NCBI GenBank assembly: GCA_944548615.1
Contig: OX155980.1
Coordinates: 64,126,874-64,190,873, forward strand
Source of the DNA: Micropterix aruncella
Lineage: Eukaryota > Arthropoda > Insecta > Lepidoptera > Micropterigidae
DNA: 64,000 nucleotides
Reading direction: 5' to 3'
Every line of letters begins with the position of its first letter. Positions within the stretch are counted from its first letter, which is position 1. Positions 8,117-56,154 of this stretch are shown here, piece after piece. The translations under genes and the position numbers were made by a program. The notes beneath the pieces are model-generated. The model did not search any database, had not been told where the DNA came from, and saw only the letters and a list, made by a program, of their open reading frames with translations.

Positions 8117-8140
8117 TGTATGCGTTACATAACGCATACA
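8117..8140. repeat. Short perfect hairpin
   Basis: Arms GTATGCGTTA and TAACGCATAC flank a short CA-containing loop. No flanking element is evident. Confidence 0.6.
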
Positions 8141-8439: not shown

Positions 8440-8990
8440 TTAGCAGCTAATGGGATCTAATGGGCCTTGCTGAGTTGGCCACGTAGACCCATTTGTTCAG
8501 GGCTGGTCACACTCTCGGTTTAACACCCATCCGGCGGCCTCCACGCATGAAGTGCGAGCCCGGGTAGAACTCTGGCCTTGGGCTAGTTTCCCCTAGGAGT
8601 CAATCTTCTGGCGCTCCTGGACGGTTTGCGCACCGTGCGGCGTAAGCCAATCGGTTGTGCATTCTGACTAACAGTCGGGGGAGTCTACTGTTTCCTATAT
8701 AGAGGGAGTGGTTGCTGACCTTACGGCGATTGCTCTTGAAACGACCATCGGCTACCCGATCCCGGGTGAACAGCCGGGCAAAGGACGCCGTGGTCCGCGA
8801 TAGATTCGGTTTACACCGTTTCACCGTTTCGTAGGGTAGATGACCGCGCAAGCGACCTCGAACTCATAACCAGTCGAGAGACCGGAGTAATCTGATCGCG
8901 ATTGGAAGTAAGGGCGTGAGTGTAAGCCCGCTGGGTAACAAACCTGGTTATCTCGCGGTTAAGGCGTTAGCCACTGACCTCAAGTAAAAT
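8440..8990. repeat. GC-rich degenerate dispersed repeat
   Basis: Its GC content is clearly higher than the surroundings. Part of it (8745-8965) matches 35765-35955 in order: GGCTACCCGAT, TGGTCCGC, TAGATTCG-like, GCGCAAGCGA, AACT. It also shares the ending TCGCGGTTAAGGCGTTAG-like with the second copy. The 83-codon minus ORF here has no recognised content. Class unknown; possibly a retrotransposon untranslated region. Confidence 0.5.
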
Positions 8991-11900
8991 GAGCATATAA
9001 TTGCCATTGTGAAAACAGCCAATTTCACGACATATCTTATTAGAAAAGTCTTTCAGATACTAACCGCCTGAGCTCTTTGTACTAGTCTACGAGGGCTTTG
9101 GATAACGACTAACCTAACCAACAAAAAAGCTATAATTACAAATGTTTCAACTATGAATGTTGTACGAATAGTTAGGTGAAGGGCCAAAATTTTCATGCAT
9201 GTCTTTATGCAATCTTATAAGCAATTAGCCAAAATGGCTTTATTAATTTTAGATTACGATTTTCAATTTGAATTCAATAAATTGATAAACCCTTTCTTTC
9301 AGATTCATTAGATAATGTTAGTTAGTTAAAATAATTAAATTTCGCTGAATTTTATTAAAAAACTGATAATAAAATGAAAAATATGGAATTTATTCAAAAC
9401 ATTCTTCGACTTATCGATTTTGAGTTTTTTTTAAAGGGGTGAGGATATGTCAGGTGGAGATAATTTTAAAATTTTTCGCTAACATTTTTATTTACTTAAG
9501 TTTTTTAAAATAATTTAAATTGAATTATTAAAGTTTTTTTATGACTGTATAAAAAAAACTTAAATAATTCGTAATATTGCCGCAAATTTGAAACTATTAA
9601 GTGATGTTGTTTCGGGTGTACATGGTGCAGCCCCTTTAGTAATAATATTCTACAATGCAGCTGAACTTCCAATAAGACAACACCTTTGATCTATTGGTAA
9701 TACCTACCGCTGCTGTCAACCGTCTAGTTAGGGATGGTCCTTTCCAGCGGGGATTAGGTATAGATATTATTTGTAAACTGGTTCAATCGCTTAAAAAGCT
9801 CGCCTTATTTGACACGCGAAAATTAAAATGCTCAAAATGCGAAAACAAAAGACTCCACAACGCACAAAAAACCCCGATTTACCGTCCCGCTCATCGCTCC
9901 CCACCTTACGCCCTAAGTGAGAACGTTTTTTAGCACACTTGTAGTTGCTAAAAAGTTTATGTTTTTATGTGTAGGTCTTTTTGCTTATAAATCGAGAATA
10001 AAGAAACTACAATCCAAAATCGACCCCTGCATTCTTCATATGTCTTCTTATTTTTCTTGTTGTACCACATTTGTTACCGAACATTGGCTGTCTATAACTT
10101 TGTTAGTTGGAACTCGAAACAAGGATACAGTAAATTTTTGAAGCTATTTTCAGAAAGATTCCGCAAGTTCTTGATCTTTGACATGAACCCTTTTTCTCTG
10201 TTGCCAATGCTCACATCCCAATCAATTATTTTACGTGGATACAGAGCCCAAAATTCTTTTTTTTATATATTACCGGTTAATTATTTCATTCTTTTATTAT
10301 ATTATTTTTAATTGTAAATGCAATCTCCTAAATATGGGTCATAAGAATATACTTGAGTTTTGCGTAAAACATTTAAAATTAATTAAATTGTCCATCTAAA
10401 AGGAAAAAATAAATATTTCCCTAAGGTCATGCCACCATCCCTTTTTTTAAGCGTGTCTGTATCGTTAGAACATGTAAAAAAAACAAATATATATCTTTAC
10501 TAGAACAAGATATTCAGTGAACCGGAAACATCAACATTAATTTCTAAATTATAAATATAACTTAAAAATTAAACAATAAACAAAACTAAGACCCATACAA
10601 TGTTTTATCACAATTAGAAACTAATAAAAACTTGGAAAAACGCAAATTTTATACCAAATTTAACTGTTTATATTTCTTATTTTACCACCACATTTATTAA
10701 CGACTTCTTGGTTGCCTAAATGGACACTGCTGATTCCTGTTCTGTTCTATAACAAGCAGTATAAGTTGCTTTTCGTCTTTATCCGTGATGAGTAACTTAT
10801 TATAATTTTCAAATTTAACGCCCCTTCCGCTTTATCGTTTACGACTCGGTCTATGCCTTGAAAGTAATCAAAATTGTCGACCCAATTCTCCTGACATAAC
10901 ACCGCGAATGTCTATTGTATGTTGAGAAGATGTGAGAAGATGAGTGCTTGCGATGTTCTCTTTAATGTAATTTCTCCCAAAAGTATTTGATTAGTTAAAA
11001 TTGAATGGTTGCCTCTAACAAAAGAGACCAAGATTCAAATTTTATTCTCTCCATAATCGCTTCTAGTTCATTACAACTTAATTTGTCGGAAAAAAACGGT
11101 AAAACCTACGAGTCCACCAGACAAGTACCACGAGTAATATTCTAAGACCATTCTTGTAGAATTTTCAATTTCCGGTTATAATATACAGGTACATTGACAA
11201 TTATTTGAGTAACAAATATTATATAAATTTATAAATCTGGAAAAGGAAGACAGGTTAGTTATGTTATAAAATATACCTGTAATATGTATATTATGTATAT
11301 AAATACTTATTTGTATATATATATATATATATATATGTATTATGTATGTACATTATAGTATGTATTATTTATCTACTTCGCCATCACAATTTCACGCAAC
11401 ACAATTTCAGTACTAATTGGCATATTTCAATATTCATAAACTTTAAACCGTAATGCTTTATGTTTTCCACATTATTTATTTTATTATATAAACATAAATA
11501 GACAATTTTTATGTAATTTATTTAAAAATCAATTTCATTTCTGAATGACGTGAGTCAATTTTTTTTTGTTTGTTAGTACTTCTTAAGTATTGAGTAATTT
11601 TGATAGTTTTCGATCAATACCAGTATAATAAAATTCGATCAATATATAAGTCTCACAATATATATGAATTTCGATCAATATAATATATTTGTATTGTATA
11701 TCTGTGTAACAATATGTATATTATGCAGTTTCTTGTTGACTAGTCAAATTGTTTTTTTAACATTATCAAATATTATTTTTAAAAAAATATTTGAAGTAAA
11801 TATTTACATGAGACGTGGCTCACGTTATTTATAATTGAATATGTAATTATAGAAAATTGATATTTTATATTTATTTAATAAAATTAATAATGTGAACACC

Positions 11901-13843: not shown

Positions 13844-13845
13844 TA

Positions 13846-13860
13846 CACTCAGAGAAATTT
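13846..13860 (+). repeat. Left terminal inverted repeat of the CACTA element
   Basis: CACTCAGAGAAATTT matches the reverse complement of the right end (CACTCAGAAAAAAAC) with one mismatch over the first 12 bases, then becomes imperfect. Confidence 0.75.
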
Positions 13861-13919
13861 TTACTAGACAACGCTGCATTTTTACATTGCGAGCGAAAAA
13901 TTGCGAAATTAACCATAGA

Positions 13920-14470
13920 ATATTGTGGCAATGACAAATTACCCTTTGCGGGGTCAGCAACGCTTACTTTGTCGAATGCAAAAATTGCGGAATCAACAAT
14001 ATAAAATTGTGGCGCTAACAATTTTTTTCGACATTGTTATTACCTCAATGCTCTAAACTGCGGGGTTAACAATTTTACAGCTTGTGAGTTTAACAATGTA
14101 AACGTAACATTGATTTTATACGTTGCGGCGATAGCAATGTTCCGCTACTTTGATAAATTGACAACGTGCTAATCTGCGGAATTCACATAGTTAAAGATTG
14201 TGATTTTCACAATGTAAGCAGAATATTGATTTTATACATTGCGACGATGGCAACTTTACGGTACTTTGATAAATTAGCAATGTGCTAATCTGTGGAATTC
14301 ACATAGGTGAGTATTGTGAGTTTCACAATGTAAGCGGAACATTGCTTTTTTAATGTTGTGGATAAATTAGCAATGTCCATGATTAACATAGTTGGTTTGT
14401 CAGTTCCACAATGTAAGCGAGACATTGATTTTATACGTTGCCGCGCTAGCAACTTTTACTAGCAACGCTA
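13920..14470. repeat. Left subterminal repeat array (116-bp units)
   Basis: The ATTGATTTTATAC-like anchor recurs at 14109, 14225, 14341 and 14424. This gives two 116-bp periods and a shortened 83-bp one. Each unit holds ACAATGTAAGC, ACATTG, GATAAATT and AGCAATGT in order. Similar CAATGT and TTGCGR words continue toward the terminus. Such arrays are expected binding sites for the element's own DNA-binding protein; binding itself is inferred. Confidence 0.75.
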
Positions 14471-14619
14471 GCTAGTAACTACGTAAGTTGTGAATAAGGC
14501 AATGTTTTCATAATTCCTCAATGTTTTTAAATTGATATTAACACAACTTTGACGTAGATTTTTTCTCAATGGCAGATAGGTTTGAGAAAAACTCAAACTA
14601 TAATTGTCAAAACCGCAAC

Positions 14620-14878
14620 GTTTATTTTCTACAAAGTTGGGGGCTTTCCTAAACGTTGTCAAAATCCCGCCGCGCGCGCAAGTCGCGACACGCTCGCCGC
14701 TCGGCTGTTTGTTTGCGACGCTATTCCAGTTGATTCCAGTCTGTAACAAGGGCGCGGGCGGAGCGCTCGCTCTGATCAAGTGCATTTTACGGCGTCGTAT
14801 TTTCAAGAAAGAATTAAAAGCACAACTCCGAACTGTTCAAAAGTGCAATCAGTGATTAAGTGGCGACATCTCAGAAAA
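14620..14878 (+). promoter_or_regulatory. Probable 5' region of transposon gene 1
   Basis: A GC-rich patch (CGCCGCGCGCGCAAGTCGCG at 14669-14688 and GGGCGCGGGCGGAGCGCTCG near 14751) lies just upstream of the first ATG, in otherwise AT-rich DNA. No convincing TATA box is visible. The position makes it the likely promoter and 5' untranslated region; the transcription start is not determined. Confidence 0.4.
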
Positions 14879-17800
14879 ATGGAGAAAGAACAGCAGCTAC
14901 TGTTTGACTTCTTAATATCGAACAACCTCGTACACCTGTTTTCCACACTACAAGGTAAGTTTTTTGAAAAAAATATTTATCGAGTCAGCGTGGTGAATAT
15001 AGTCGAATGATATTGAAAGATCAATAATCTAGAATAATAATAAAATCAGGTCTTCTTAATATGATCAGTAGTTTCGGAATAAAGGGTGAACACATCGAAC
15101 GCGTCGGCTGCCGCGGCCATGTGTCGGGCGCGATCTGTGTAATGAATTTCTATTGAGCCGTCCTATATTATCGCGTCCTATTATCGTCCTATATAGAAAT
15201 CGTCCTATTATCGCGACCTTGAGGCTTCGGACGACTGTACATACTGTCCTAAGCCACGGCAGCAAACGCGTCCGATAGTGCAATGTGTTCGCCCCTTAAT
15301 CGTCGTTTTTCTGAAACGCTATCTTTTTATTGTGATTTATTCTTCTTCTCGTTCTCTAAGAGACACTACAATTCAAACGTTAGCGCTCGAGGAGTTAACG
15401 GACTCAATAAATGAGATATAGGTATTTAAAAAGTGTCAACTCTATACATTTCGGTAGGTTAAGTTAGTTTTTTAAAACAATTTATTAACACCTATGTGAC
15501 AGTAGGTTAGGTTAGTTTTTTTTAAGAACCATGATAAAACTAATTTACAAAATAAAAATAAATTAAATTTAAAAAAACCGACCTTATTTTTTAACAGATT
15601 TAGCACTGCAATGATTGAATTTAGTAGTGTGTATTTTTTTTTTGAAAACTAGACGAGGTACCAAAAGTAGAATAATTCCGACTTAACGGAGTGGCTATAA
15701 TAGATTGTTTTTTTTCTAGATCAGGGTGCAGATTTAGACTTTCTGCTGCACGCTAACGATCACGAGCTTTACAGCTTGGTTCCACAGGTCGTAGATAAAG
15801 GAAAGCTTCGCATAGCACTGGACCGCGTGAGTAGTTCTGATGGTTGCTCCTTGCATGCCTGTTGCAATAAAATTCAGATAAAAGTCAGTTCGCATCAAAC
15901 TTGTCTTTTCGACGGTTTGTAAAGTTTTAAATCATAAAACACTTTGCGACACTCCGATGTACACTTGTGCCATAATGTTCGTGACATTATCGGTTTTCGT
16001 TCCGATTGCACTCCCACGCACATTGCGGTCGGCAAGACGTCCGGTTGGCTATCCGAAGTCTACGTAATTATGTTATTTACAGATATTATAGTAATTTCCT
16101 TTATTTACAGAAGAAGGAAAGTGACCTATGCAAGGTTAGCGTTCTTAATGAAAGAACCGTTCGCACTTCTGTCGCTGCTCCATTTAGGCAAAAGTCGTTC
16201 GTGTCGACATCGCGCACTTCCTCACCGTCATCTTGCACTCCCTCACCGTCATCATGGTGTATGACTCCACATGAGGTTTGTGTAGATTTCATGCACCATT
16301 TTAAATAAATAAATTAAAATTTTCACAGTAATTTAAAAATAACAAATTTTGCTTGTATCGAATATAATTGAATGTCTCTTGGTAAAATAAACTGAATTAA
16401 TTGCAATTTAGTTTTAACTGTAGTATATTTCCTGTCATAGCATAATATGATATTGAACCTTCAATAAGGCTGGATATTTTTTTGTTACAGGAGGGTCCTC
16501 AACACACTGTCTCTTCGTTTAATACTCAGATTGATGCTACAGAGAAGTTTTTGTCACCTGCTGTAGCCGGTTCATCATCTGCCAGGGCGGCGGTGAGTTA
16601 GAAAAATTATAAAACTGGCTTTAAATAAAAACTGTTATTGGATGGAACAGAATGTGATCTCGTGCAGTCTCGTGGACTACGGCCGCTTTTGAATACTATA
16701 AAATGACGAGAAATAAAATAAGTAGAGAATTATATAAATTTTTTTAATTTCAGGAAAGGGAACTCACACATTTTGATGAAGAAGTGTCAATTATCGACTT
16801 TACTACAATCCTGGTAGGAACAACACTCCGATCAATGTTGGAGTCCACCACAGCAGGAAAGCCGCTTCTTAAAAAACAAGTTTTAACGACACGGGACCGA
16901 AAAATCATCACTGCTGTCATCGTGGAGTCAGAAGTACGCAAACTAAAAAAAGTTACGGACCCGATACGAAAAGAAGTATGGGAAAACTGGACCAAAGAGA
17001 TTGTATCTCTATTTCCGGAAGAAACAAACTCCGTATATTACAGCCCCTTTCGAATAGTTGAAGGTCGGGCTATACAGGCCAGTGGCCTCATTATCAACCG
17101 ACTAATCACAGTTAGAAGAAACCTGTCAACTCCATCAGAACCCCGCCGCAGCGAGAGCCGCAGTAGTGAATACAGCAGCGACAGCGAAAATAAAAAGAAG
17201 AAAAGGCGTACAAGCGACACGCCTGGTAGAACACGACCTTTGCCTGAAAACTTCAACTTGCTTCAACAACTTCAGAATGAGGAGGCCTCGTCTCAAGATG
17301 ACGTGCAGTGGCTCAAAGTCTCCTCATCACCCCGAGATCTCGCTAAATCTAAATGGCATAATACTCTGCGCGAGCGGGTAGCCATCCTAGAGGGAAGCGA
17401 CTATATAGCTTACTGCAAAACATTCCCAGCGATACAATCTCCATGGGGCTATGAATTGGTGAGTAATTTTGTAAGCTTATCAACATGCGACATTTCTCAC
17501 TTGTTGCAAATTTAATACAGTGGCTACATTTTGCGGATCTAACCGCTAAGACATCGATCACGCGGCATCGATGCAATTCTGCTGAACGCGCTTTTTCTAT
17601 TTTGTCTTTTTTGAGATTATTTTCAAAGAGTATCATGTTATTATATTCGTAATTATTTTCGATTTCCATGTTGTGTTCAAAAACGTTGTAAACAATCCGA
17701 ATGACAGCTACGTTTGACAGCTTGCTACTAACCGCTGCTAATCGAAATTCAATTAAGTTCAATTAAGTCATTGCGTTTTTGTGGGCTTTCAGCAGATAAT

Positions 17801-19399
17801 GTGCAATCGATGACTCATCGATGTGTTCTGCAAAATGTAGCCAGTGTCACTATTATATAGAATAAAAAAAAGAAATAAAACGCACATTGGAATATGCTCC
17901 TGTAGCGTCATTGTAAGCATTTGAGTGTATTATGTATTATTTTTTTATTTACTTATTTAATGCTTGCACAATTAAAAAGTAATTACAATGTCACTCAGCA
18001 AATAATAGAACATTGAAAAACAACAGCTTAGGATCAACACAGCTCAGGCGCTATGCACATCTAACGGGGCCTCTAATGCCTGTATCTAGATGCAGAATTG
18101 TTGTGTAAAACATAACGCAATAGTAAATATATTAGTATGATGTAAGTTTATATAAGTAAATACAACATTTTTTTTTGTGCAGTTCGCCAGTGACTTCAAT
18201 TCAATATATGGAGAAGCAAAAAGGAAATTCGAAGAAAGATTCCCAACAGTGAAGACTCGCCTACTAACATTATTGGACGAGAAGGCCCAAGAGTTCATAC
18301 GCAGAGTTGATATTCAATCTGTCTTGGATCTTGCAACCTGTAAGTAATGTTTAGTTCTAAATAATACCTTAACTTAAGTCCTGGCCATTTAATTGTTCTA
18401 TTAAAATCTGTCTTCTTCTTCTTCTTCTTTAACAGCCCTTATCTATACTAATATTATAAAGAGGTAAAGTTTGTGACGTTGTAGGAAGTAATCTCTGGAT
18501 CTACTGAACTGATTTTGAAAGTTATTTTACCAATAGAAAGCCACGTTATTTGTGAGTGTCATAGGCTATATATTAATCCGAGAAATGAGAAGACTTTTTC
18601 GTGGTAGTCGGATTTTCAAAGTAAGTCGGAAAAAACGGTCGAACGAAAACGTTTCTAACGAACGCTGCCTTAACGATGAGAGATATATGATTAAGTTCTA
18701 GAGAAAAGTTGTAGATCTTAATAATGCTTACAAAAAAGTCTTACTTATTAAAAATATTTATCAAATTAAATCTCCTCAACTACTTCTAGAGTTACGGCAG
18801 TCATGGCCGAATAATCCGGTATATTTTGAGTGCGAGACGAACAGACGAGTGATGATATATTTTATTTATTTGTAAAATTTATATTTGCAGTGGGAGAAGA
18901 ACCAGCGAACGTTGCGGCCTTCCTGTCAATTCCGCTGCTGCTCAAGCAGATGCATACGATACCGGTGAAAGGTGTCAAGAAACAGTGGAACCCCTCGCGT
19001 ACAGAAGTAAGCAGCGCCTTCATAAGTTTAGTACCGTCTGTATCAGACCTCGAAACCCATTGTTCTGAGAGAGAAGCTAAACTTACAGAGAAAAACATAC
19101 ATGTGCTTCCGTATATTATTGCTGTTGGCCCCAGTTGGAAGGATGTTGCGCAGTACGATTTAATTATATCAAAAGACATTCGGTACACCTTCTCCAATGT
19201 GTGTGATGTTATTACGAATGCTTTTAAAATATTGTGGGCATTAGATTTACCTTACCCGAAAGAATGTGCACCTATTTGGATGTTCGTTCAAAGAAGTATA
19301 TATCTCATGAAAAGCAAGTATGACACGGAAGGTACTCCGATGTTAGATTTACTCGCATCTGTTTTAAATAGACACGATGGTGCAATGCGTGTTATGTAA
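14879..19399 (+). CDS. CACTA accessory protein gene, 7 exons, 606 aa
   Basis: Exons by eye: 14879-14954, 15720-15826, 16111-16275, 16491-16592, 16754-17458, 18183-18339, 18891-19399. All six introns are GT-AG, and the joined 1821 nt read through without a stop, ending TAA at 19397-19399. The ATG has A at -3 and G at +4. Residues 1-61 (exons 1-2: LFDFLISNNLVHLFSTLQ, then LLHANDHELYSLVPQ and GKLRIAL) look like a SAM domain. Exons 3-4 are Ser/Thr/Pro-rich. Exon 5 (235 codons) includes RKEVWENWTKEIVSLFPEE, a Ser/Arg/Lys-rich stretch with a likely nuclear signal (NKKKKRR), and CKTFPAIQSPWGYEL. Exon 6 has FNSIYGEAKRKFEERFPTVK; exon 7 continues with AAFLSIPLLLKQMHTIPVKG. I remember proteins of this layout as unnamed partners of zinc-finger CACTA-like transposases in other animals. 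Role (DNA binding or assembly of transposase) is inferred. Confidence 0.8.
17518..17846. mobile_element. MITE inside intron 5
   Basis: Starts CAGTGGCTACATTTTGC and ends GCAAAATGTAGCCAGTG, inverted repeats with one mismatch. Further in, ATCGATGNNTCATCGAT-like words continue the pairing. The CAGTGG start suggests hAT affinity, but no clear 8-bp target duplication is visible. The 243-aa open frame running off exon 5 ends at 17515, just before it. Confidence 0.6.
17935..18100 (-). repeat. LINE 3'-tail-like repeat in intron 5
   Basis: Shares GCCTGTATCTAGATG and the general layout with 25890-26110, including an A/T-rich tail at its plus-strand left (TTTATTTACTTATTTA). Probably a 5'-truncated LINE untranslated region on the minus strand. 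Confidence 0.45.
18442..18640 (+). mobile_element. Lep1-like Helitron 5' fragment in intron 6
   Basis: Begins TCTATACTAATATTATAAAG, the well-known 5' end of lepidopteran Helitron-type repeats, after a run of CTT triplets. It continues with CTACTGAACTGATTTTGAAA, also typical. The 3' end (hairpin plus CTRR) was not located. Confidence 0.65.
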
Positions 19400-21782
19400 A
19401 CGGTCTCTTCTTAATTTAAGACAATTTAAAAACCACTACACTATTTATCATCCTGGCCAGGTCTATTTCTGTCCAACTATTGGTTGCGGAAGAAGGTATC
19501 AACTTTACAACTCGTTTAGACGTCATTATTTGAAAGACCATTCAGAGGCCCAAGCCCCTGAAGCAATTTCATCCAATATGGACACTTCACATATGCGCAC
19601 TACACCAGCTGGGTTACAAAATGATGATAAAATAGTTTCTAAACTAGAAAATGAAGCTATCAAAGCAAAATATGTAAACATTAATTTGAATACTGTTTCA
19701 CTGAGCAAAACCATGGCTCAACTGTTTTCATCCCTTTATAGTAATCCTCAATTGCCGATAAATGTGTCAGATACAGTTTATAACGGTATTGAAAACATTT
19801 TCAACTTATCTATCAAGCCTTTATTACCGATGACGCCCGGCTCTGCTACGGAAAACATTATAAGTGATTTAAAAATGTTTAATTCAATGCACCATAGATT
19901 GAAGTACTTTGAAGGAAAAGGGTCCTTAATTAATCCTGAGCCTTATGTGGTGGGTCGCAGATTTGATTTTGTAAAAAAAAATGGAAGCAGTTTTTATCAA
20001 GCAGTAGATTGCGTGGCGCATAAAATACAAATGAAAGCGGTTTTGCACAAATTTTTTTCTTTGCCTCGGTTGCTATGTCAGACGATAGATAATATGAAAA
20101 AACTAATGAACCATGACGCATCAGTCAGTGTGGAACATTTTATGCATGGTTCATTTTGGAGACAGAGATTTCATGGAGAAAAATTAGTCATGCCAGTAGT
20201 TTTGCAAATAGATGATTTTGAGACTTTGAACCCTTTGGGGAGTCATAGTGGCATACATAAATTGGGGGCAGCCTACATTTCTCTTCCTTGTCTGCCTTAC
20301 TATTATGCCTCCCAATTGTCTAACATTTTTTTGACTTTATTATATCATTCTAATGACAGAGTCGAATTTGGAAATAAAATAATATTCCAGCCTCTAATTG
20401 ATCAGTTCAATGACTTAATTCGAAACGGAATATCATTCGATCTACCAAATTTTAAAGGAACCGTTTACTTTGAATTGGCACTCATTTTGGGAGATAATTT
20501 AGGTTTGCACAGTGTTTTAGGCTTTGTTGAAAGCTTCTCGGGCAACTTCCCTTGTCGTACTTGTAAAGTAGAAAAGAAACTAATGCAAAAGCAATTCTAT
20601 GAAAATACATCTCTTCTAAGAACGGACTCTAACTATCAGGAAGATTTAAATACGAACAATCCATCTCTGACAGGCGTGAAAGAGAATTGTACATGGCTTC
20701 AGATAGAAAATTTTAGTTTATTTTCACAAATGGGTTTTGATGTAATGCACGACTTACACGAAGGTTGTTCAAAGTATATCATGTGTTCACTGCTTGTAGT
20801 TTTTGTAGATAAACTGAAATATTTTTCAATCGATATTGTTAATAGCAAAATTTCTTCATTTTCCTATGGCCCTGATAAAAAAGATAAACCGGTCACGCTA
20901 GCAATGCCTAATATACGAAAGGGCAATATACGTTTAAACGCTGCCGAAATGTACACATTTTGCAAGTATTTTGGGGTGATGTTCGGCAATTTCGTTCCGA
21001 GGTACGATAAGTATTGGGAACTATATATTCAATTGATGAAAGTTATAGATTTTGTCTTATCTCCCGCCTTTGCACCTGATCAAATTGACTTTTTTAAGTT
21101 TTTAGTAGCTGACCTTTGCGAAATGTTTACCACATTGTTCGAACAATCTCTTAAACCCAAGTTTCACAATTTATTGCATTACCACTCCGCAATGTTACGA
21201 TTTGGTCCCTTACGGCATCTGTCTTCTATGCGCTTTGAAGCTAAACATCGACCGAACAAGTTAGCCGCAAAAACCTCAAATAATCGAATGAACATGACAT
21301 TCACAATAGCTCGAAGACATCAGTTGATCTTAAATGATATTTTTCTAAAGGGAAGTATAGGTTCGTCTTTTTCATTCGGAGGCCAAAAAGAAATTGCCGA
21401 TAGTAAAGTTAAAAAAATTCTAAATAAAATTAAGCTGTCTAATATAAGCAAATTGTATAAAGTCAAATGGGCAGAAAAGTGTTCTGAGCGGTATAAAGCA
21501 AATGACATAATTATTTCTGCAATTGAGGAGGAAAATGTTACCTTTGCTAAAATAAAAGATGTATATGTTGATGGTGTATGTAAAATAATAATTAAGGCAA
21601 AGCTTTTTGAAACAATAGGTTTAGATGATCATTATCATGCTTATTATCTACGAAACTCGTGTCAGACGTCAGTATTCATTGATCAGGAATTGATGCAACA
21701 TCCGTTCATATGCAATGGTGTAGTTATCGGATATGACATCAATCTACCTGAGCTCCATGTTGTACTTAGCAAGCCTATTTAA
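19377..21782 (+). CDS. CACTA-type transposase with N-terminal zinc fingers, 801 aa
   Basis: Single exon. The ATG has A at -3 and G at +4, and an in-frame TAA at 19365-19367 fixes this as the start unless splicing intervenes. Two C2H2-like fingers open the protein: C4-C7-H20-H25 (CVLCKRSL...FKNHYTIYH), then CPTIGCGRR...FRRHYLKDH. The core carries QIDDFETLNPLGSHSGIHKL (D279/D280), LGDNLGLHSVLGFVESFSG (D373), a CRTC knuckle after it, and DVMHDLHEGC (E462). These are my candidate metal-binding D, D and E residues. HNLLHYHSAML...FEAKHRPNK follows. It presumably cuts at the CACTC termini. The start lies inside the last exon of gene 1, 23 nt before that gene's stop. The frame is undamaged, so activity is possible. 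Confidence 0.85.
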   Translation: MVQCVLCKRSLLNLRQFKNHYTIYHPGQVYFCPTIGCGRRYQLYNSFRRHYLKDHSEAQAPEAISSNMDTSHMRTTPAGLQNDDKIVSKLENEAIKAKYVNINLNTVSLSKTMAQLFSSLYSNPQLPINVSDTVYNGIENIFNLSIKPLLPMTPGSATENIISDLKMFNSMHHRLKYFEGKGSLINPEPYVVGRRFDFVKKNGSSFYQAVDCVAHKIQMKAVLHKFFSLPRLLCQTIDNMKKLMNHDASVSVEHFMHGSFWRQRFHGEKLVMPVVLQIDDFETLNPLGSHSGIHKLGAAYISLPCLPYYYASQLSNIFLTLLYHSNDRVEFGNKIIFQPLIDQFNDLIRNGISFDLPNFKGTVYFELALILGDNLGLHSVLGFVESFSGNFPCRTCKVEKKLMQKQFYENTSLLRTDSNYQEDLNTNNPSLTGVKENCTWLQIENFSLFSQMGFDVMHDLHEGCSKYIMCSLLVVFVDKLKYFSIDIVNSKISSFSYGPDKKDKPVTLAMPNIRKGNIRLNAAEMYTFCKYFGVMFGNFVPRYDKYWELYIQLMKVIDFVLSPAFAPDQIDFFKFLVADLCEMFTTLFEQSLKPKFHNLLHYHSAMLRFGPLRHLSSMRFEAKHRPNKLAAKTSNNRMNMTFTIARRHQLILNDIFLKGSIGSSFSFGGQKEIADSKVKKILNKIKLSNISKLYKVKWAEKCSERYKANDIIISAIEEENVTFAKIKDVYVDGVCKIIIKAKLFETIGLDDHYHAYYLRNSCQTSVFIDQELMQHPFICNGVVIGYDINLPELHVVLSKPI

Positions 21783-21854
21783 TTGAAATGAATGAAAATC
21801 TTAAAAGTTGAATAGTTAAATATTATAATGATCAAAATAGTTTATACATGTATG

Positions 21855-21860
21855 AATAAA
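21855..21860 (+). terminator. Polyadenylation signal after the transposase
   Basis: AATAAA lies 73 bases after the stop codon and is the first canonical signal in the 3' region. It is repeated in the duplicated copy downstream. Confidence 0.6.
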
Positions 21861-21978
21861 ACTGTAATCTGTAAATTTATGGCTTCTTATGTTTGTTAAT
21901 CTTAGTTAAGAGGAGACAGAGTTTCTAGAGCATACGTTTCTATACAAAATATTACAGAAACGTCTTTCAAGTTCTTAG

Positions 21979-22235
21979 CCCTTCAAGCCCCGCGACTTCG
22001 ATATCGAAGTCAACTTAACGCGTCCAGGAAAAGTGATTTGATTGGGTTTTTCGTGTCATTCCGTATGCAGTTGTATTTTATTTAAATGCACGATGATACA
22101 AATATCATCGTGCATTTAAATAAAATACAACTGAATACGGAATGACACGAAAAACCCAATCAAATCACTTTTCCTGGACGCGTTCAGTTGACTTCGATAT
22201 AGAAGTCGCGGGGCTTAGTCGCGGGGCTTGAAGGG
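21979..22235. mobile_element. 257-bp piggyBac-type foldback MITE
   Basis: Near-palindromic: arms starting CCCTTCAAGCCCCGCGACTT and ending GGGGCTTGAAGGG pair almost throughout, around a centre near 22103. It is flanked by TTAG (21975-21978, a decayed TTAA) and TTAA (22236-22239). CCC/GGG ends at TTAA are the piggyBac signature. The duplicated copy downstream (22805-22813) has a single TTAA at the same point and shows the empty site. Non-autonomous; no coding. Confidence 0.88.
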
Positions 22236-22320
22236 TTAAAGACTATTTTGTATGGAAATTTTCTATTTCCGACCTAAACTCTGTCTCCACATAAAATTAT
22301 TCGAGTAAAATTAAAATTAA

Positions 22321-22609
22321 TAAAGCAAATGACATAATTATTTCTGCAATTGAGGAGGAAAATGTTACCTTTGCTAAAATAAAAGATGTATATGTTGATG
22401 GTGTATGTAAAATAATAATTAAGGCAAAGCTTTTTGAAACAATAGGTTTAGATGATCATTATCATGCTTATTATCTACGAAACTCGTGTCAGACGTCAGT
22501 ATTCATTGATCAGGAATTGATGCAACATCCGTTCATATGCAATGGTGTAGTTATCGGATGTGACATCAATCTACCTGAGCTCCATGTTGTACTTAGCAAG
22601 CCTATTTAA
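22321..22609 (+). pseudogene. Duplicated C-terminus of the transposase gene
   Basis: Repeats the last 95 or so codons of the transposase, with stop at 22607-22609, and has no start of its own. It is the product of the tandem duplication. At least one coding difference from copy 1 is visible (Tyr to Cys in GYDINL). Confidence 0.9.
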
Positions 22610-22989
22610 TTGAAATGAATGAAAATCTTAAAAGTTGAAAAGTTAAATATTATAATGATCAAAATAGTTTATACATGTATGAATAAAACTGTAATCTGTA
22701 AATTTATGGCTTCTTATGTTTGTTAATCTTAGTTAAGAGGAGACAGAGTTTCTAGAGCATACGTTTCTATACAAAATATTACAGAAACGTCTTTCAAGTT
22801 CTTAATGACTATTTTGTATGGAAATTTTCTATTTCCGACCTAAACTCTGTCTCCACATAAAATTATTCGAGTAAAATTAAAATTAAACACTCCTTTTGTT
22901 ATAACATGTATGTCAGTTGTAAATAAATAAATGTTTTATTTTGTGTAACTGTTGTTTATGTTTTAGGTTATTGGATACACAAACACGCA

Positions 22990-23243
22990 CAAGTAATGCA
23001 ACATAGGCTTCAGATCTTCTTCAGGTTTTATTTGCAATGCTGTTCCTGGTCAACCGCAGTGTAAATATTGCAGGAATAGCAATAATGGATTTCTTTTTCC
23101 CTGCAATTAATATTTACACAGCGGTTGTACAGTATACAGCAGTACAAATAAAATATGCTGAAGATCTGAAGCAATGCGTACGTTGCTTTATTAGCAACTT
23201 TCAAGTTGTTAGAAACACAACTTGAAAGTTGCTAATAAAGCAA
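22990..23243. repeat. Two inverted repeats in the transposon 3' region
   Basis: Imperfect arms around 22995-23075 and 23095-23175 share GCTTCAGATCTTC, AATATTTACAC and CAACCGC in inverse order. Immediately after, 23183-23207 pairs with 23219-23243 (TTGCTTTATTAGCAACTTTC and its complement) around a short loop. No coding. Confidence 0.7.
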
Positions 23244-23500
23244 AGTGCGCATTGCTAAACCCACAAGGTTGAACCACAACTCTGTTAGAAACACAACTTG
23301 AAAGTTGCTAATAAAGCAAAGTGCGCATTGCTAAACCCACAAGGTTGAACCACAACTCTGTTAGAAACACAACTTGAAAGTTGCTAATAAAGCAAAGTGC
23401 GCATTGCTAAACCCACAAGGTCGAACCACAACTCTGTTAGAAACACAACTTGAAAGTTGCTAATGAAGCAAAGTGCGCATTGCTAAACCCACAAGGTTGA
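23208..23500. repeat. 76-bp tandem repeat, nearly four copies
   Basis: GTTAGAAACACAACTTG recurs at 23208, 23284, 23360 and 23436, an exact 76-bp period; the last copy stops near 23500. Copies differ by one or two bases. It lies just inside the right subterminal region of the CACTA element. Confidence 0.95.
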
Positions 23501-23766
23501 AAGGCGGAATTGATTGCGAATCAACAGAGTAAAGTTGTGAAATTCGCAATGTGTTAACATTGCGAATTTCACAAAGTAAAATTGTGAAATATGAGCCATC
23601 AAAGTAAAGTTGTGAAAGCGCGCCTTTGTGAAATTAACAATGCTATGCTCTGTCATATAAGCAATGTTTTTCGACAATTTTGGCGTTGTGGCTCCCACTA
23701 TTTTACCTTGATGGCTCATATTTAACAACTTTTTGTTGTCAAATTCACCATGTTTTTTTCTGAGTG
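23501..23766. repeat. Right subterminal region and right terminus
   Basis: Contains CGCAATGTG, AACATTGCG, AACAATGC, AGCAATGTT and other CAATGT-type words in both orientations, as in the left end. GAGCCATCAA and its complement TTGATGGCTC form a further inverted pair (about 23592 and 23708). It ends TTTTTTTCTGAGTG at 23766, followed by TA. Confidence 0.75.
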
Positions 23767-23768
23767 TA

Positions 23769-25889: not shown

Positions 25890-27200
<1,311 letters not shown>

Positions 27201-27265: not shown

Positions 27266-28408
27266 TTTAGAGTCTGGGAGGAGTCACGAGATGTAGTAGG
27301 CATATTTTGTGACCTTTCCAAGGCCTTTGACTGCGTACAGCACGACACATTGGTTAGGAAACTTGAACACTACGGCATTACAGGTAGCTCATTAGCCCTT
27401 CTTAAAAACTATTTAAATGATAGGGTTCAGAAGGTTGATGTTGGCGGAGAGAGATCATCCGGCTCGTTAGTATACATGGGAGTACCGCAAGGTTCAATAC
27501 TTGGACCGTTCCTTTTTCTTATTTATATAAATGATTTACCTTACACAGTAAAACCAAATTGTGAGATAGTTTTATTCGCAGATGATACCTCTTTGCTATT
27601 CAAAGTAGGTAGACAACAAAATAATTATGACGATGTGAATGATTCTATCTCGAATGTTGTGGAATGGTTCACAGCAAACAATCTGCTACTAAATGAAAAG
27701 AAAACAAAATGTATAAAATTCTCACTTCCAAACGTAAAGCAAATAGGGCCAAATATTATAATAAAAAATGAGCGCCTAGAACTGGTCGATTCCACTGTAT
27801 TCCTTGGTATCACTTTAGATAAAAAGCTACAATGGGGCCCACACATTAAGAAATTGGCCGACAGGCTAAGTTCTGCGGCATATGCTGTAAAAAAAATTCG
27901 TAATTTAACAGATATAGACACCGCGAGGCTGGTTTACTTCAGCTATTTTCACAGCTTGATGTCGTATGGCATCTTGCTGTGGGGTCATGCTGCTGACGCT
28001 GATAAAATATTTATACTACAGAAACGAGCCATCCGCGCTATTTATAAATTGGGTGCTAGACAGTCGTTACGCGGAAAATTTAAAGAAATCAATATTTTGA
28101 CACTTGCATCTCATTACATCTATGAAAACTTAATGTATGTGCATACAAATAAAGAACTGTTTTTAAAAAACTCTGATAGGCATGGTGTCAATACTAGAAA
28201 TAAAAATAAACTTGCTGACCATAAAAGTCGACTCTCCAAAACCACAAAATCATTCAAAGGGCAATGTATACGCTTCTACAATAAAGTCCCAGTAAAAATG
28301 CAAAATTTATCTGTGATACAATTTAAGTCATTTATTAAGAAGAAGCTGTACTCAAAGGGCTACTATAAAATAAATGATTATCTAGACGACAAAGACCCTT
28401 GGAAATAA
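27266..28408 (+). pseudogene. 5'-truncated LINE reverse transcriptase, open frame
   Basis: The open frame carries RT motif A (CDLSKAFDCVQHDTL), motif B (GVPQGSILGP) and catalytic motif C (FADDTSLL near 27575). After the core it continues through LGITLDKKLQWGPHIKKLAD, SLMSYGILLWGH and QKRAIRAIYKLGARQS to a natural C-terminus (FIKKKLYSKGYYKINDYL). The endonuclease and the first RT motifs are missing, and there is no start codon before residue L27350. It is a truncated Jockey/CR1-like copy. The frame has no stop, so it is young or recently arrived. Confidence 0.85.
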
Positions 28409-31115: not shown

Positions 31116-32565
31116 CATTATAAATAGGATAGAAAACGAATTTACCGCGTGAAATTTGTAGGACCCGACGTTTCGGTGACGTTGCAGCCGCCGTTGTCTA
31201 GGGTAGACTGAAGCATGTCGGCGTAGCTATTAGCTACGCCGACATGCTTCAACATTGCCTGACATCCTGCTACTTTCTATGGAACGGCGATTATTACAAA
31301 CAAATCGACGGAGTAGCAATGGGATGCCCCGTATCGCCGATAGTTAGTGAAATATATATGGAATATTTTGAGGAATTAGCCATAAAAACCTCCAAAATTA
31401 AACCCATTCTCTATCTTCGCTACGTGGATGATACCTTCTGCATCCTGAAAGGCAACATTCAAACGGTGAAAGAATTCCTGGGTCATCTAAACTCCATACA
31501 CCCAAAAATCAGTTTCACCTATGAAGTAGAGAAGGACGGCTCCTTACCATTTTTGGATGTCAAAGTGACGAGGAGAAGTGACAATACTCTCGGACATACG
31601 GTATATCGGAAGCCCACACATACGGACAGATATTTGCATGCAAGCTCACACCATCATCCCTACCATCTACGTTCAGTGCAAAATTCGCTCGTGAATCGAG
31701 CACGCGATCTATGCGACAATGAGCATTTTCCGAAGGAGATGGAACATGTCAATGATGTCCTTAGGAAAAATGGATACGGAATATATCACGAGACACGCAC
31801 ACGATCTAATACAGACGAAACTCAAAAACCGAGCAGATCAAGAGCATTCTTACCATACGTCAAGGGCGTGACTGATCGAATAAGTAAGATGCTAAACAGA
31901 TTCGATATAAAAACGATCTTCAAGCCGACCCAAAATATAGCTCGATTTTTGAGGCCTGTAAAGGATGTAATACCACTGCAAACCCCGGGTGTGTATAAAG
32001 TCGAATGCAGCTGCGGTCTAGCCTACGTTGGACAAACGAAACGGCCCATAGCCACGCGACTGACAGAACACATCAAAGCTGATAAAAACGTTCACCGAGA
32101 AAAATCGGCGATCTGCGAACATATATTGGATAGCGGAAGTAACCACTGGATGCAGTTTCAAAATCCCATTGTTCTATCCAAGGAACAATTCTACTTTCCT
32201 CGCATGATCCGGGAAGCAATTGAAATAAGAAGAACCCCGAACTTCAATAGAGACGACGGCTACAAACTCTCTTCTACGTGGAACCCTCTTCTTAAAATGT
32301 TCCCGCCGCCGAACGCCGAACGCAAAGACGTAAAACAGGATACAGTGAGTGTTGTGTGCAAGACGGATTTTAAAAATTCCCGCGCTCCGAGCCCGGCCCC
32401 CCACCACCGTTATAACCTACGCAGTGGCGGCAGCGGTTTGCGGCCTACCCGCAAAACAACGGACAGCTCTTCAGTCTACCCTAGACAACGGCGGCTGCAA
32501 CGTCACCGAAACGTCCGGTCCTACAAATTTCACGCGGTAAATTCGTTTTCTATCCTATTTATAAT
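31116..32565 (+). mobile_element. Penelope-like retroelement with inverted terminal repeats
   Basis: A YVDD reverse transcriptase followed by a GIY-YIG endonuclease in one ORF is diagnostic of Penelope-like elements. Sequence 31116-31213 is the near-perfect reverse complement of 32469-32565 (about 98 bp, including GACGTTTCGGTGACGTTGCA). Inverted copies of the terminal repeat are a known Penelope oddity. Between the left repeat and the ORF is a perfect hairpin (arms about 31212-31229 and 31233-31250), so the first bases of the truncated ORF are themselves duplicated in inverse orientation. Confidence 0.88.
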
Positions 32566-32572
32566 ATCATAA
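31244..32572 (+). CDS. Penelope-like RT/GIY-YIG endonuclease, N-terminally truncated
   Basis: 442 codons from the first ATG. RT part: DGVAMGCPVSPIVSEIYME (motif with GxPxSP), then ILYLRYVDDTFCIL, catalytic YVDD at residues 60-63, and PFLDVKVTRR. Linker: VYRKPTHTDRYLHASSHH. C-terminal endonuclease from about residue 249: GVYKVECSCGLAYVGQTKRP (the GIY...YVG pair), TRLTEHI and AICEHI. The enzyme would nick target DNA and reverse-transcribe the element RNA. Complete family members carry roughly 200 or more residues before the GxPxSP motif that are missing here, cut at the hairpin. The final 35 or so residues are read through the terminal inverted repeat. There is no stop within the frame. Confidence 0.85.
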   Translation: MLQHCLTSCYFLWNGDYYKQIDGVAMGCPVSPIVSEIYMEYFEELAIKTSKIKPILYLRYVDDTFCILKGNIQTVKEFLGHLNSIHPKISFTYEVEKDGSLPFLDVKVTRRSDNTLGHTVYRKPTHTDRYLHASSHHHPYHLRSVQNSLVNRARDLCDNEHFPKEMEHVNDVLRKNGYGIYHETRTRSNTDETQKPSRSRAFLPYVKGVTDRISKMLNRFDIKTIFKPTQNIARFLRPVKDVIPLQTPGVYKVECSCGLAYVGQTKRPIATRLTEHIKADKNVHREKSAICEHILDSGSNHWMQFQNPIVLSKEQFYFPRMIREAIEIRRTPNFNRDDGYKLSSTWNPLLKMFPPPNAERKDVKQDTVSVVCKTDFKNSRAPSPAPHHRYNLRSGGSGLRPTRKTTDSSSVYPRQRRLQRHRNVRSYKFHAVNSFSILFIIS

Positions 32573-49416: not shown

Positions 49417-52400
49417 AATCCTTATTCAGCAATTCAATAATATCTTTGATGTCATCATCCTCACGGAATGCTGGATAAACGAACTTTATGTCCCCAGAAC
49501 TGTTCAAGGCTTCGAAACTTATCACACTAACAACGCCAGACTACAAAACGATGGGGTTGTGGTCTACGTAAAGTCACATTTCCACGTAAGCAGCACTGAA
49601 GTATCCGTCAATGATGCAAATTGCTTACATTTAGTAATAGATGATTCCCTAAACTTATTTGCTATCTATAAGTCTCCGAGCAAGTCCAATTTAACAAGTT
49701 TTCTTGAGTCATTGGATAATCTGCTAGAGGCCTATAGATACGAGTCTAATATAATATTAACTGGAGACATCAACATTAACATCTTAAATGATAAAAATAC
49801 TCAATCGGAAAACTATCTTAACCTTCTGGCGCATTATGGACTGGAGGTCGGAATTAATAGACCTACTAGAGTTGATGAGAATACTAAGAGCTGCATAGAT
49901 CATTTTATGATCAAAACTAAATTTCATAGTCAAACGTTCATTTACCAATCCACCATCACCGACCACTATGCAATTGGTCTATGCCTATCTAAAAAAATAA
50001 TTAAGAACAGCCCTAAACAGACGTATTCCAAAAAAACAGTCGATTACGCATCAATATCAGAAAACCTCAAAAAGACGGACTGGACTCCAATATTACAATG
50101 TAAAGATAGTAACATTGCTGCCAACCAATTCCATGATATTCTTGCAAATTGCATTAAAATGGCTACAATCGAAAAGGCATGTACTATACCCAGGTCTCGA
50201 AATAAACTATCTCCTTGGATAACCGATGGCCTGATTTTCAGCATAAGAAAGCGAGACATTATACATAAGCAGATTAAACAATGCCCTAATGATATTCAAC
50301 TCTTAATGTACTACAAAAGGTATAGAAATATATGTAAAAAACTTATAACAAAAACTAGAGATAAGTATTATAGAAACAAAATAGATAGAGTAAATGGGGA
50401 CAAAAAAAAAACTTGGGAAATTATCAAAGGGTTAGTGAACAACAGAAATAATAGCTCAGATATAAAAGAGATGTATGTACATAAGGAATTAAAAAAAATG
50501 GACTTACACTCTAACGATATATTGAATTACATTAATGACTACTTCACTGGTATAGGACAAGACCTAGCTAACTCTATACTGCATAAAAAGGGTATGTCTG
50601 AGAGGGAGCTAGCCTTATCAATGCATAAGCAACCGAAATTAAATGAAAAATTCGAATTATTGCAAACGAATAAAGAAGAGGTCTTAAAGACTGTAAAAAG
50701 TATCAGAGACGACTGTGCTCCAGGAAAAGATGGGATCCAGGCAAAGATAATCAAACAATCTGCAGAAACATTATCCGAGCCCCTTGCTCATCTAATAAAC
50801 CTCAGTTTCTTGACTGGTATATTTCCAACATGGCTGAAAAAAGCGATAATAAAACCAATATTTAAAAGTGGTAAAAAAGAAGATATAGGAAATTATCGCC
50901 CTATCTCCCTCCTCAGTGTGGTTTCTAAAGTGTATGAAAAAATATTCAAACATAGACTAACACAATATCTAGAGACACAGAAGCTGCTATCTAATAATCA
51001 GTATGGCTTTAGACAGGGTCGGGGAACCAGTGAGGCCATCAATGCTGTCATACAATATATAGTGGAAAACATAGACAAAGGAAAAAAGGTAATTGCCACT
51101 TTCCTTGACCTGTCAAAGGCTTTTGACACAGTTTCCCATGTAAACCTCGAAAAAAAACTAACTGACTACGGAATCGATGGGGTGGCCTTAAAATGGGTTC
51201 GGAGTTACCTAGACGGGAGGACTCAGAGCACAGTAATTGGTCGACAAATAAGCGAAGCGACTAACGTGTCATTCGGTGTCCCTCAAGGTAGTGTTTTGGG
51301 TCCAATTCTCTTTTTAATCTACATCAACGAATTGTGCGAATTACCTGTTAATGGTAGAATTGTATCCTTCGCGGACGACACTGTCCTTCTTACTGCGACT
51401 AATAATTGGAATGATACATTCTTCAAAGCTCAAAGTAACTTGGAACTGGCTAAAACTTGGATCGACAACCATATTTTAACGCTAAATGCTGCGAAATCAA
51501 AATTTATCACTTTCAGCTTGCGGGGAAATCCCAGCCAGGTTCTCAACCAAACACTTGGCATTCATACTGACAAATGCTTGGATAAGAATAGATGTGTATG
51601 TACTAAATTAAGCAAATCTGCAACAGTCTCCTACTTAGGCATAACGGTAGATGAGAAGCTATGTTGGGAAAATCAGATTGCAAATTTGAGTTCGAGAATT
51701 AGAAAGCTGGTTTATGTATTTCTTCGGCTGCGCAACATTCTGTCCAAAACAACCATAAGAATGGTATACATGGCCTTGTGTCAGAGTATTTTGTCCTACG
51801 GAGTCGCGGCATGGGGCGCTACTACTAATGATAATCTGGATAGATTGACAAAAGCGCAGAAATTATTATTGAGAGTAATTCACAGGAAAAACCGACGTCA
51901 TCCATCTGCCTTGTTATTTTCCCAATCCCATGTGCTATCAGCTAAACAGTTATTCATTAAGCAAGCGCTTCTTGCATTCTACAAATCTAGAGATGACCAC
52001 GCCCGAACTCAAAACAATCTGAACACAAGAATGTCCGCGAGTATCAATTATATAATTCCGTCAGTCAGGACAACATTTGCCCAGAGACATATATTCTACA
52101 TAGCCCCAAAATTATATAATTCCCTTAGTGAAGACATGAAAAATTATCCTAACATAAAAATATTTAAAGCAAACCTTAATAGATGGCTACTTAACCAGGG
52201 ATATGTAAAATCTGATCAACTTCTTTGCAACGCACGACAATTTATTTAGTATCACTTATCTATTTTTCTTAATTAAATTTTATTAAATTACAACTATAAA
52301 TATATATATATACATTTATTACATAGCTACATTTTTTATAAAATTGGTATATTTATGTATACATAAATATATACCTGGTGGTGGGTCCAAATAATTTATT

Positions 52401-54925: not shown

Positions 54926-54944
54926 CATAGGACAATGGAGCGAG

Positions 54945-55010
54945 CAGGGCCGTATTTAGAATCCATAGCGGTAGGCCCCAAACCTGTGGTACGGGCCCTA
55001 CCACTTTTAT
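54945..55010 (+). repeat. hAT-like left end, truncated
   Basis: CAGGGCCGTATTTAG followed by GGCCCC and GGGCCC blocks is the usual left end of a lepidopteran hAT-type repeat. It runs into the TA tract and gap, so no right end is seen. Confidence 0.45.
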
Positions 55011-55060
55011 TTTTATTATTTTATTTTTATTTATTTTATTTTATTTGGTTAACAAACAGC

Positions 55061-55355
<295 letters not shown>

Positions 55356-55555
55356 NNNNNNNNNNNNNNNNNNNNNNNNNNNNNNNNNNNNNNNNNNNNN
55401 NNNNNNNNNNNNNNNNNNNNNNNNNNNNNNNNNNNNNNNNNNNNNNNNNNNNNNNNNNNNNNNNNNNNNNNNNNNNNNNNNNNNNNNNNNNNNNNNNNNN
55501 NNNNNNNNNNNNNNNNNNNNNNNNNNNNNNNNNNNNNNNNNNNNNNNNNNNNNNN
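55356..55555. other. Assembly gap, 200 N
   Basis: Exactly 200 N bases, a conventional size for a gap of unknown length. The preceding TA tract probably caused it. Confidence 0.99.
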
Positions 55556-56154
55556 TAAAGCTCTCTTTTTAATGTATTTATACAAAAATACATTTTTTCC
55601 TAAATCAAAATCCAGAAATATTTCAACAAAAATATGATTCCGCTGAATATTTCTGGAAATATTCAGAATGATTTTTTTTACAATAACCTAAAAAGTGCGG
55701 CGTCACGCTGCTACCAATAAGTCATATTATTCTTTAAATATCCATGAGGTATGTATGAAATGTTTTGGTTTAAAAATATCAGAGTAAGCATTAAATACTT
55801 ATCTACTGTAGTAATATTAAAATTTTTTACTTTAAAAAAGACATGACACCCAAATTTAAGACCATTATTTTCAAAATGTACCATATAATACTACTTTTAC
55901 AAAAATAATATATAAAATGGCTATAAATACGGCTACCTTGCGCTCCATGCGTGAGTGATTCTGGCGTTTCAGTGTTTGTTGCCAGATTTTTAATTCATTG
56001 CACTTACAAGAAAGCCAACAACTCTGTTCGATTTTGTTGACAGAACCGCAATAGCTGTTTTAATTGTATGCAGTAATCCTAGTTATGTTCAAAGCAACTT
56101 AATCTTTACCCAAAAGAAACGCAATAGTACCTACTGATTATTATTTTTTTATTT
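55556..56154. other. AT-rich DNA after the gap
   Basis: A small inverted repeat (CCAGAAATATTTC with GAATATTTCTGG, 55610-55652) and the second 20-bp direct repeat (55695-55714) are the only structure seen. Confidence 0.5.

Follow-up and report, generated by a model that had tools for sequence, protein, structure and literature searches.

The 64,000-nucleotide stretch of Micropterix aruncella DNA analysed here (contig OX155980.1; hereafter the window) carries a 9,921-bp DNA transposon at positions 13846-23766. It very probably belongs, as a complete element, to a high-copy and recently active family of cut-and-paste transposons of the CACTA type, within the CACTA-Mirage-Chapaev-Transib (CMCT) clade. 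The limits of the transposon, with both ends present, were established by inspection of the sequence and by comparison with other copies in the same genome. Coordinates below are those of the window unless stated otherwise; the genes, terminal repeats, subterminal arrays and internal duplication are given on the + strand, and no strand is assigned to the target-site duplications or to the near-palindromic insert.

Ends, target sites and genomic copies

The transposon begins with CACTCAGA (13846-13853) and ends with TCTGAGTG (23759-23766), an 8-bp terminal inverted repeat, and both ends are flanked by TA (13844-13845 and 23767-23768). These are the true ends of the element, because other copies break off at identical bases within differing flanks. 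In the window, the repeat seems to be 11 bp long because C/G adjoins the TA duplication, and other copies carry other bases there; a longer terminal repeat, CTACACTCAGA, was rejected, as other copies vary outside CACT.

The host genome (1.08 Gb in 742 contigs) contains 188 exact matches to the 29-bp left end and none to a reversed control pattern. Besides the window copy, we examined 40 scored copies out of 320 first-look candidates, every one of which is 100% identical over the first 600 bp. A first set comprised 20 copies taken as 10-kb stretches (L009-L028, with that for L026 misplaced) plus L029, also of 10 kb, and a second set comprised 19 copies, read in short pieces around the left end and the two expected right ends; the lengths given for the 11 long copies among these 19 are thus distances between the ends and not those of whole sequences. 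Eighteen of the 40 copies are long. In 17 of these the right end lies at 9,660-9,921 bp, and in L011 a TTAA near the expected right end marks the switch to other sequence. Fifteen are a short derivative with a right end at 4,313-4,632 bp, and L029 is rearranged and measures ~7 kb. These make up the 34 classified copies, with L012, L021, L035, L041, L043 and L045 left out of the classes.

Matching 2-bp target-site duplications were found at 33 of the 34 insertions readable at both ends (window included), of which 23 are TA, five TG, four CA and one AA. The sole mismatch is L038, flanked by CG and CT. A pyrimidine-purine step is present at 32 of the 33 matching duplications, and TA precedes 126 of the 188 exact left ends genome-wide. 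A duplication of 3 bp was rejected, as the third bases disagree (e.g., TTA/TAC in L009). The matching ends with TA flanks that an earlier note had proposed from the window were recovered at 13846 and 23766, the element proved complete, and the other genomic copies sharing both ends, for which that note had suggested a search, are indeed present with duplications of their own.

The first 8.1 kb could be compared among the window copy, L011, L015, L018, L020, L023 and L028, the long copies without insertions or deletions in this part (L024 was excluded for one). Fifteen positions vary; over the 56,700 bases compared, this amounts to about 2.6 x 10^-4 changes per site and points to a very recent spread. 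Each change is private to one copy, and L020 has no private change. The star pattern is imperfect, as I681N in the transposase is common to L047 and L048; a length of 9,660 bp is common to L024, L033, L047 and L048. With a butterfly mutation rate of about 3 x 10^-9 per site per generation, the spread of the copies dates to the order of 90,000 generations. The recent activity supposed earlier is thus borne out by the near-identical copies, the 188 left ends and the individual 2-bp duplications.

Such extreme identity might also be produced by an assembly artefact or by segmental duplication, with no transposition involved. Nevertheless, the flanks that were read vary among the copies, and a matching duplication of its own accompanies each of 33 insertions out of 34; duplication during assembly was rejected on these grounds, and we give the whole explanation next to no credence. 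It is equally improbable, to a degree that makes it negligible, that the two genes have been domesticated and now serve the host. Both reading frames are intact, which would suit this reading, but 188 left ends, the matching duplications and amino-acid changes scattered among the copies all argue against domestication, and a single domesticated locus devoid of ends was rejected because of the 188 left ends.

The two genes and their products

The transposase is encoded by an intronless open reading frame (ORF) of 801 amino acids at 19377-21782, in agreement with the uninterrupted zinc-finger transposase of the earlier note. Domain and fold predictions divide the protein into two C2H2 zinc fingers (residues 1-56), a RAG1-like DDE core (about 108-663) and a possibly BAH-like region (about 664-801). 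The residues diagnostic of the CMCT clade, D279, D373, C393, C396, H597, H601 and E621, are kept in 48 or 49 of 49 aligned sequences, and the predicted model of the core adopts a fold of the RAG1/Transib type. Motifs and this model together give good support to a DDE transposase built on a RAG1-like core. The profile of the whole protein was also compared with PDB sequences, and the best 60 of 128 matches fall on the N-terminal finger region. For the C-terminal BAH-like region, no match of any kind to PDB sequences was obtained at E 10, and the BAH family was not among the best 25 of 39 families listed for A1. A search for relatives in viral contigs yielded 67 stretches fitting a pattern, none of which was confirmed.

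Among the 17 long copies in which the transposase ORF was read (window included), 16 have it open, the exception being L024 with a late frameshift. Nine of these 17 come from the 11 long copies of the second set, and the ORF is open in every one of the nine. The window copy and L011, L015, L018, L020, L023 and L028 have both genes open and every splice signal in place, so that the two-gene element described earlier holds for the window and for six further long copies. The window element may be autonomous, though its residue 275 is valine, where all 16 other copies read (15 open ones and L024) have phenylalanine. Among the 49 aligned sequences, phenylalanine is the commonest residue at this position (34 sequences), and valine is found in two, the window copy being one of them.

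Upstream of the transposase lies an accessory gene of seven exons, the splice model of which places them at 14879-14954, 15720-15826, 16111-16275, 16491-16592, 16754-17458, 18183-18339 and 18891-19399, with the stop codon at 19397-19399. The six introns are of the GT-AG type and in frame, yielding the protein of 606 amino acids claimed before. The exon model is independently supported, because homologues in Cydia pomonella, C. strobilella and Scirpophaga (P0121-P0124) match 98% of its length with 53-55% identity. Alignments to Cydia proteins back exons 1, 2, 5, 6 and 7 in particular; the exon 3/4 and 4/5 joints lie in a variable linker and are less firmly supported by the homologues, and the annotated N-terminus of the Scirpophaga homologue deviates. 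In L024 the accessory exons are unchanged, unlike the transposase. By eye, another protein, P0129, resembles accessory exon 5 and then runs into the apparent start of the same intron, a hint that some other species has a closely related element.

The N-terminus of the accessory protein, encoded by exon 1 (start of the domain) and exon 2 (the remainder), is predicted to form a sterile alpha motif (SAM) domain. In the C. strobilella homologue P0123, residues 1-65 are modelled as a five-helix SAM fold, and the first 37 rows of a structure search were all SAM domains, with top scores for ANKS3 (10.0), tankyrase-2 (9.9) and BICC1 (9.8) and a drop to 6.2 thereafter. Several of these SAM proteins polymerise. 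The model of the accessory protein is unreliable past residue 65 and was not used there. The SAM region by itself gave seven low-grade matches among PDB sequences, to designed or cell-surface proteins, which we took as chance.

The two reading frames overlap by 23 nucleotides (19377-19399), which the earlier note did not mention, with the transposase ATG 20 nucleotides upstream of the accessory stop codon. The C-termini of the four homologues read (P0121, P0122, P0123 and P0125) all end in ...HDGAVCNM. With the frame shifted, such a stretch can yield M-x-x-C-x-x-C, the second cysteine being kept only if the last residue is L, M or V. In the Scirpophaga gene model P0128, the accessory C-terminus runs into the second zinc finger of the transposase, and fused accessory-transposase gene models also occur in Brenthis and Aphis. 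From these C-termini and fused models taken together, the accessory-transposase gene order appears to be conserved among the relatives.

The fused models can be read in another way, namely that the transposase is normally a fusion, with splicing linking the SAM protein to the transposase past the overlap. P0054 of Brenthis (1,136 amino acids, SAM_1 at E 0.0015), P0055 of Aphis (partial, named SAM domain-containing) and P0128 would be examples of such a product. However, gene finders force frames together, and the fused models are without the first zinc finger, the cysteines of which are conserved (C4 in 42 and C7 in 43 of the 49 aligned sequences). We therefore regard a regular fusion as unlikely and prefer two separate proteins. 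The transposase is probably translated by termination-reinitiation, on a message whose accessory stop is overlapped by the transposase start codon, or else from a second transcript.

Subterminal arrays, insertions and a non-coding derivative

Subterminal arrays are present at both ends, as had been noted before. On the 5' side, a repeat region with approximate limits 13890-14520 contains 116-bp tandem units (14075-14349) and TAGCAATG-type words, which are presumed protein binding sites. The 3' array (23207-23501) consists of 3.9 copies of a 76-bp unit, and the length of L018 (9,845 bp) would be explained by one such unit fewer. The 8-mers CATTGCTA and AACATTGC, chosen post hoc as the top-scoring words shared by the two arrays, are 43 and 51 times as frequent as in the remainder of the window. 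CATTGCTA is found three times in the first 750 bp and four times in the last 700 bp, against 0.07 expected at the rate of the rest of the window.

The 3' end of the transposase gene is involved in a 567-bp tandem duplication, likewise absent from the earlier note. The first copy (21493-22320) is split by a 261-bp insert, and the second (22320-22886) repeats the transposase 3' end downstream of the stop codon. The same layout is found in L011, L015, L018, L020, L023 and L028. Comparison of the two duplication copies identifies the insert (21975-22235) as a near-palindromic, piggyBac-like miniature inverted-repeat transposable element (MITE) with CCCTTCAAG ends, at a TTAA-type site that reads as an unbroken TTAA in the second copy. 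The family includes both MITE-bearing and MITE-free forms, because the first duplication copy of L024 lacks the 261-bp insert (at element base 8132), giving a length of 9,660 bp. The bases at this site in L024 are compatible with loss of the insert by excision and equally with its never having been there. In two further copies, L011 (near 9,921) and L012 (near 2,499; both read along the + strand of the element), the sequence switches at TTAA to one that starts with CCCTTCAA or CCCCTCAGG. These sequence features suggest that piggyBac-like elements insert into this transposon family.

The short derivative, of about 4.3 kb, accounts for 15 of the 34 classified copies and keeps element bases 1-1141 and about 8825-9921. 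Its 2.1-kb middle repeats part of the 5' subterminal region and also holds a piece of intron 3 and exon 4, and a 90-codon frame in it looks like the captured 3' end of a long interspersed nuclear element. The longest stop-to-stop frame is 122 codons. Ten other derivatives of the first set are 99.4-100% identical to the reference derivative L017 (41-4361) in their main alignments, with some 300 additional bases in L010. The derivative was found to contain no part of the transposase ORF, and it must therefore, we infer, move in trans.

Elsewhere in the window, long TA-type simple repeats, visible as YIYI frames, lie at 26155-26965 and 54935-55593, the latter adjoining a stretch of unreadable bases. 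By reading alone, ORFs at 27350-28408, 31244-32572 and 49559-52249 resemble reverse transcriptases, and that at 31244 has a GIY-YIG-like motif, which we take to be as in Penelope elements.

Position in the CMCT clade and a possible mode of transposition

The En/Spm elements of plants encode TnpA and TnpD and generate a 3-bp duplication. The Micropterix element is similar to these plant CACTA elements in its CACT ends, subterminal repeats and two genes, one for a transposase, but differs in the 2-bp duplication and in the SAM domain of its accessory protein. RAG1, which rearranges human antibody genes, BbRAGL (ProtoRAG) and HzTransib are associated with duplications of 5 bp. Compared with these, the element described here has 2-bp duplications, and its transposase joins zinc fingers and possibly a BAH-like domain in one chain; membership in Transib was rejected on the length of the duplication.

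According to PMC12730594, transposases of the CMCT clade combine a DDE triad with two motifs, C(2)C and H(3-4)H, placed between the second D and E. The window transposase has this arrangement and, in the predicted model, the RAG1/Transib-type core. The ends CACTCAGA..TCTGAGTG and the 2-bp duplications (33 of 34) agree with those of the clade (5'-CA..TG-3' in most cases, with duplications of 2-5 bp). The CACTA-type reading of the earlier note therefore holds at the clade level, by motifs and predicted fold, and the placement in another superfamily that would have refuted it did not come about. CAC ends, a 2-3-bp duplication and subterminal repeats, as in CACTA/EnSpm, are all present. The animal 'TRC' CACTA elements (SmTRC1 of Schistosoma and those of Aedes and Tribolium, as well as Spongebob) are alike in being of the CACTA type, with a 2-bp duplication and short inverted ends, and the Aedes element (9.2 kb) is of similar size. 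As far as the accessible text of PMC1636069 and PMC4298943 goes, however, TRC elements begin with CCC, whereas CAC was found at the left ends read here, and their descriptions there mention neither a SAM gene nor a BAH-like domain; the separation is drawn from these descriptions. Fungal Plavaka elements share the clade motifs, and the Plavaka family of Pfam is weakly matched by eight of the 49 aligned members. Membership in Plavaka was rejected, as the ends are not TGT..ACA or CATCA..TGATG, those given for Plavaka in the consulted portion of PMC12730594. Thus, the element is of the CACTA type in the CMCT clade, set apart from TRC, Plavaka and Transib by its ends or duplication. Repbase may have an entry for this lineage.

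Whether the element belongs to EnSpm proper is a separate matter. It is possible, though we doubt it, that within the CMCT clade it forms its own lineage next to CACTA/EnSpm, one that stands as far apart as Plavaka, ESTA or Lanisha, and that only its CACT ends are CACTA-like. The window protein has no Transposase_21 (tnp2) domain at E 1 and no Pfam transposase match; Transposase_21 is weakly matched by 12 of the 49 aligned members at E 0.1 (best 9.3e-5), besides the eight weak matches to Plavaka. The CCC ends of animal TRC elements also differ from those found here, and the inner branching of the clade is left open in what is available of PMC12730594. On the other hand, the CACT ends, 2-bp duplications, subterminal repeats and two-gene layout are jointly CACTA-like, and we retain the CACTA-type assignment.

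In the mode of cut-and-paste transposition proposed here, the N-terminal zinc fingers and the SAM accessory protein would recognise the repeated words near each end, and SAM-SAM polymerisation may line up accessory molecules along both arrays and thereby pair the ends. The transposase would then cleave at CACT and join the ends across a 2-bp stagger, and the possibly BAH-like domain may contact chromatin. The same proteins would mobilise the 4.3-kb non-coding derivative in trans. It is attractive to speculate further that this insect CACTA lineage unites zinc fingers, a RAG1-like core and a chromatin-reading BAH domain in one polypeptide, a cis counterpart of RAG1 plus the PHD of RAG2, and that a polymerising SAM protein, translated from an overlapping frame by termination-reinitiation, builds the end-pairing complex; taken as a whole, this scheme is improbable. 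Among titles and abstract openings, we found no paper combining a SAM domain, a transposase and CACTA, or one on a BAH domain within the transposase of a DNA transposon, and among titles on sterile alpha motif and EnSpm none concerned such an element.

CACTA elements have been studied mainly in plants, according to the available text of PMC4298943. A test system could conveniently be built on an animal family of this kind, in which many full-length copies are nearly identical and have open genes. In such a system, end recognition, the choice of 2-bp targets and the need for an accessory protein would be accessible to direct assay for a transposase of the RAG1 type. The predicted SAM accessory protein and the possible BAH-like domain lead to concrete hypotheses on how such elements may pair their ends and choose their targets.
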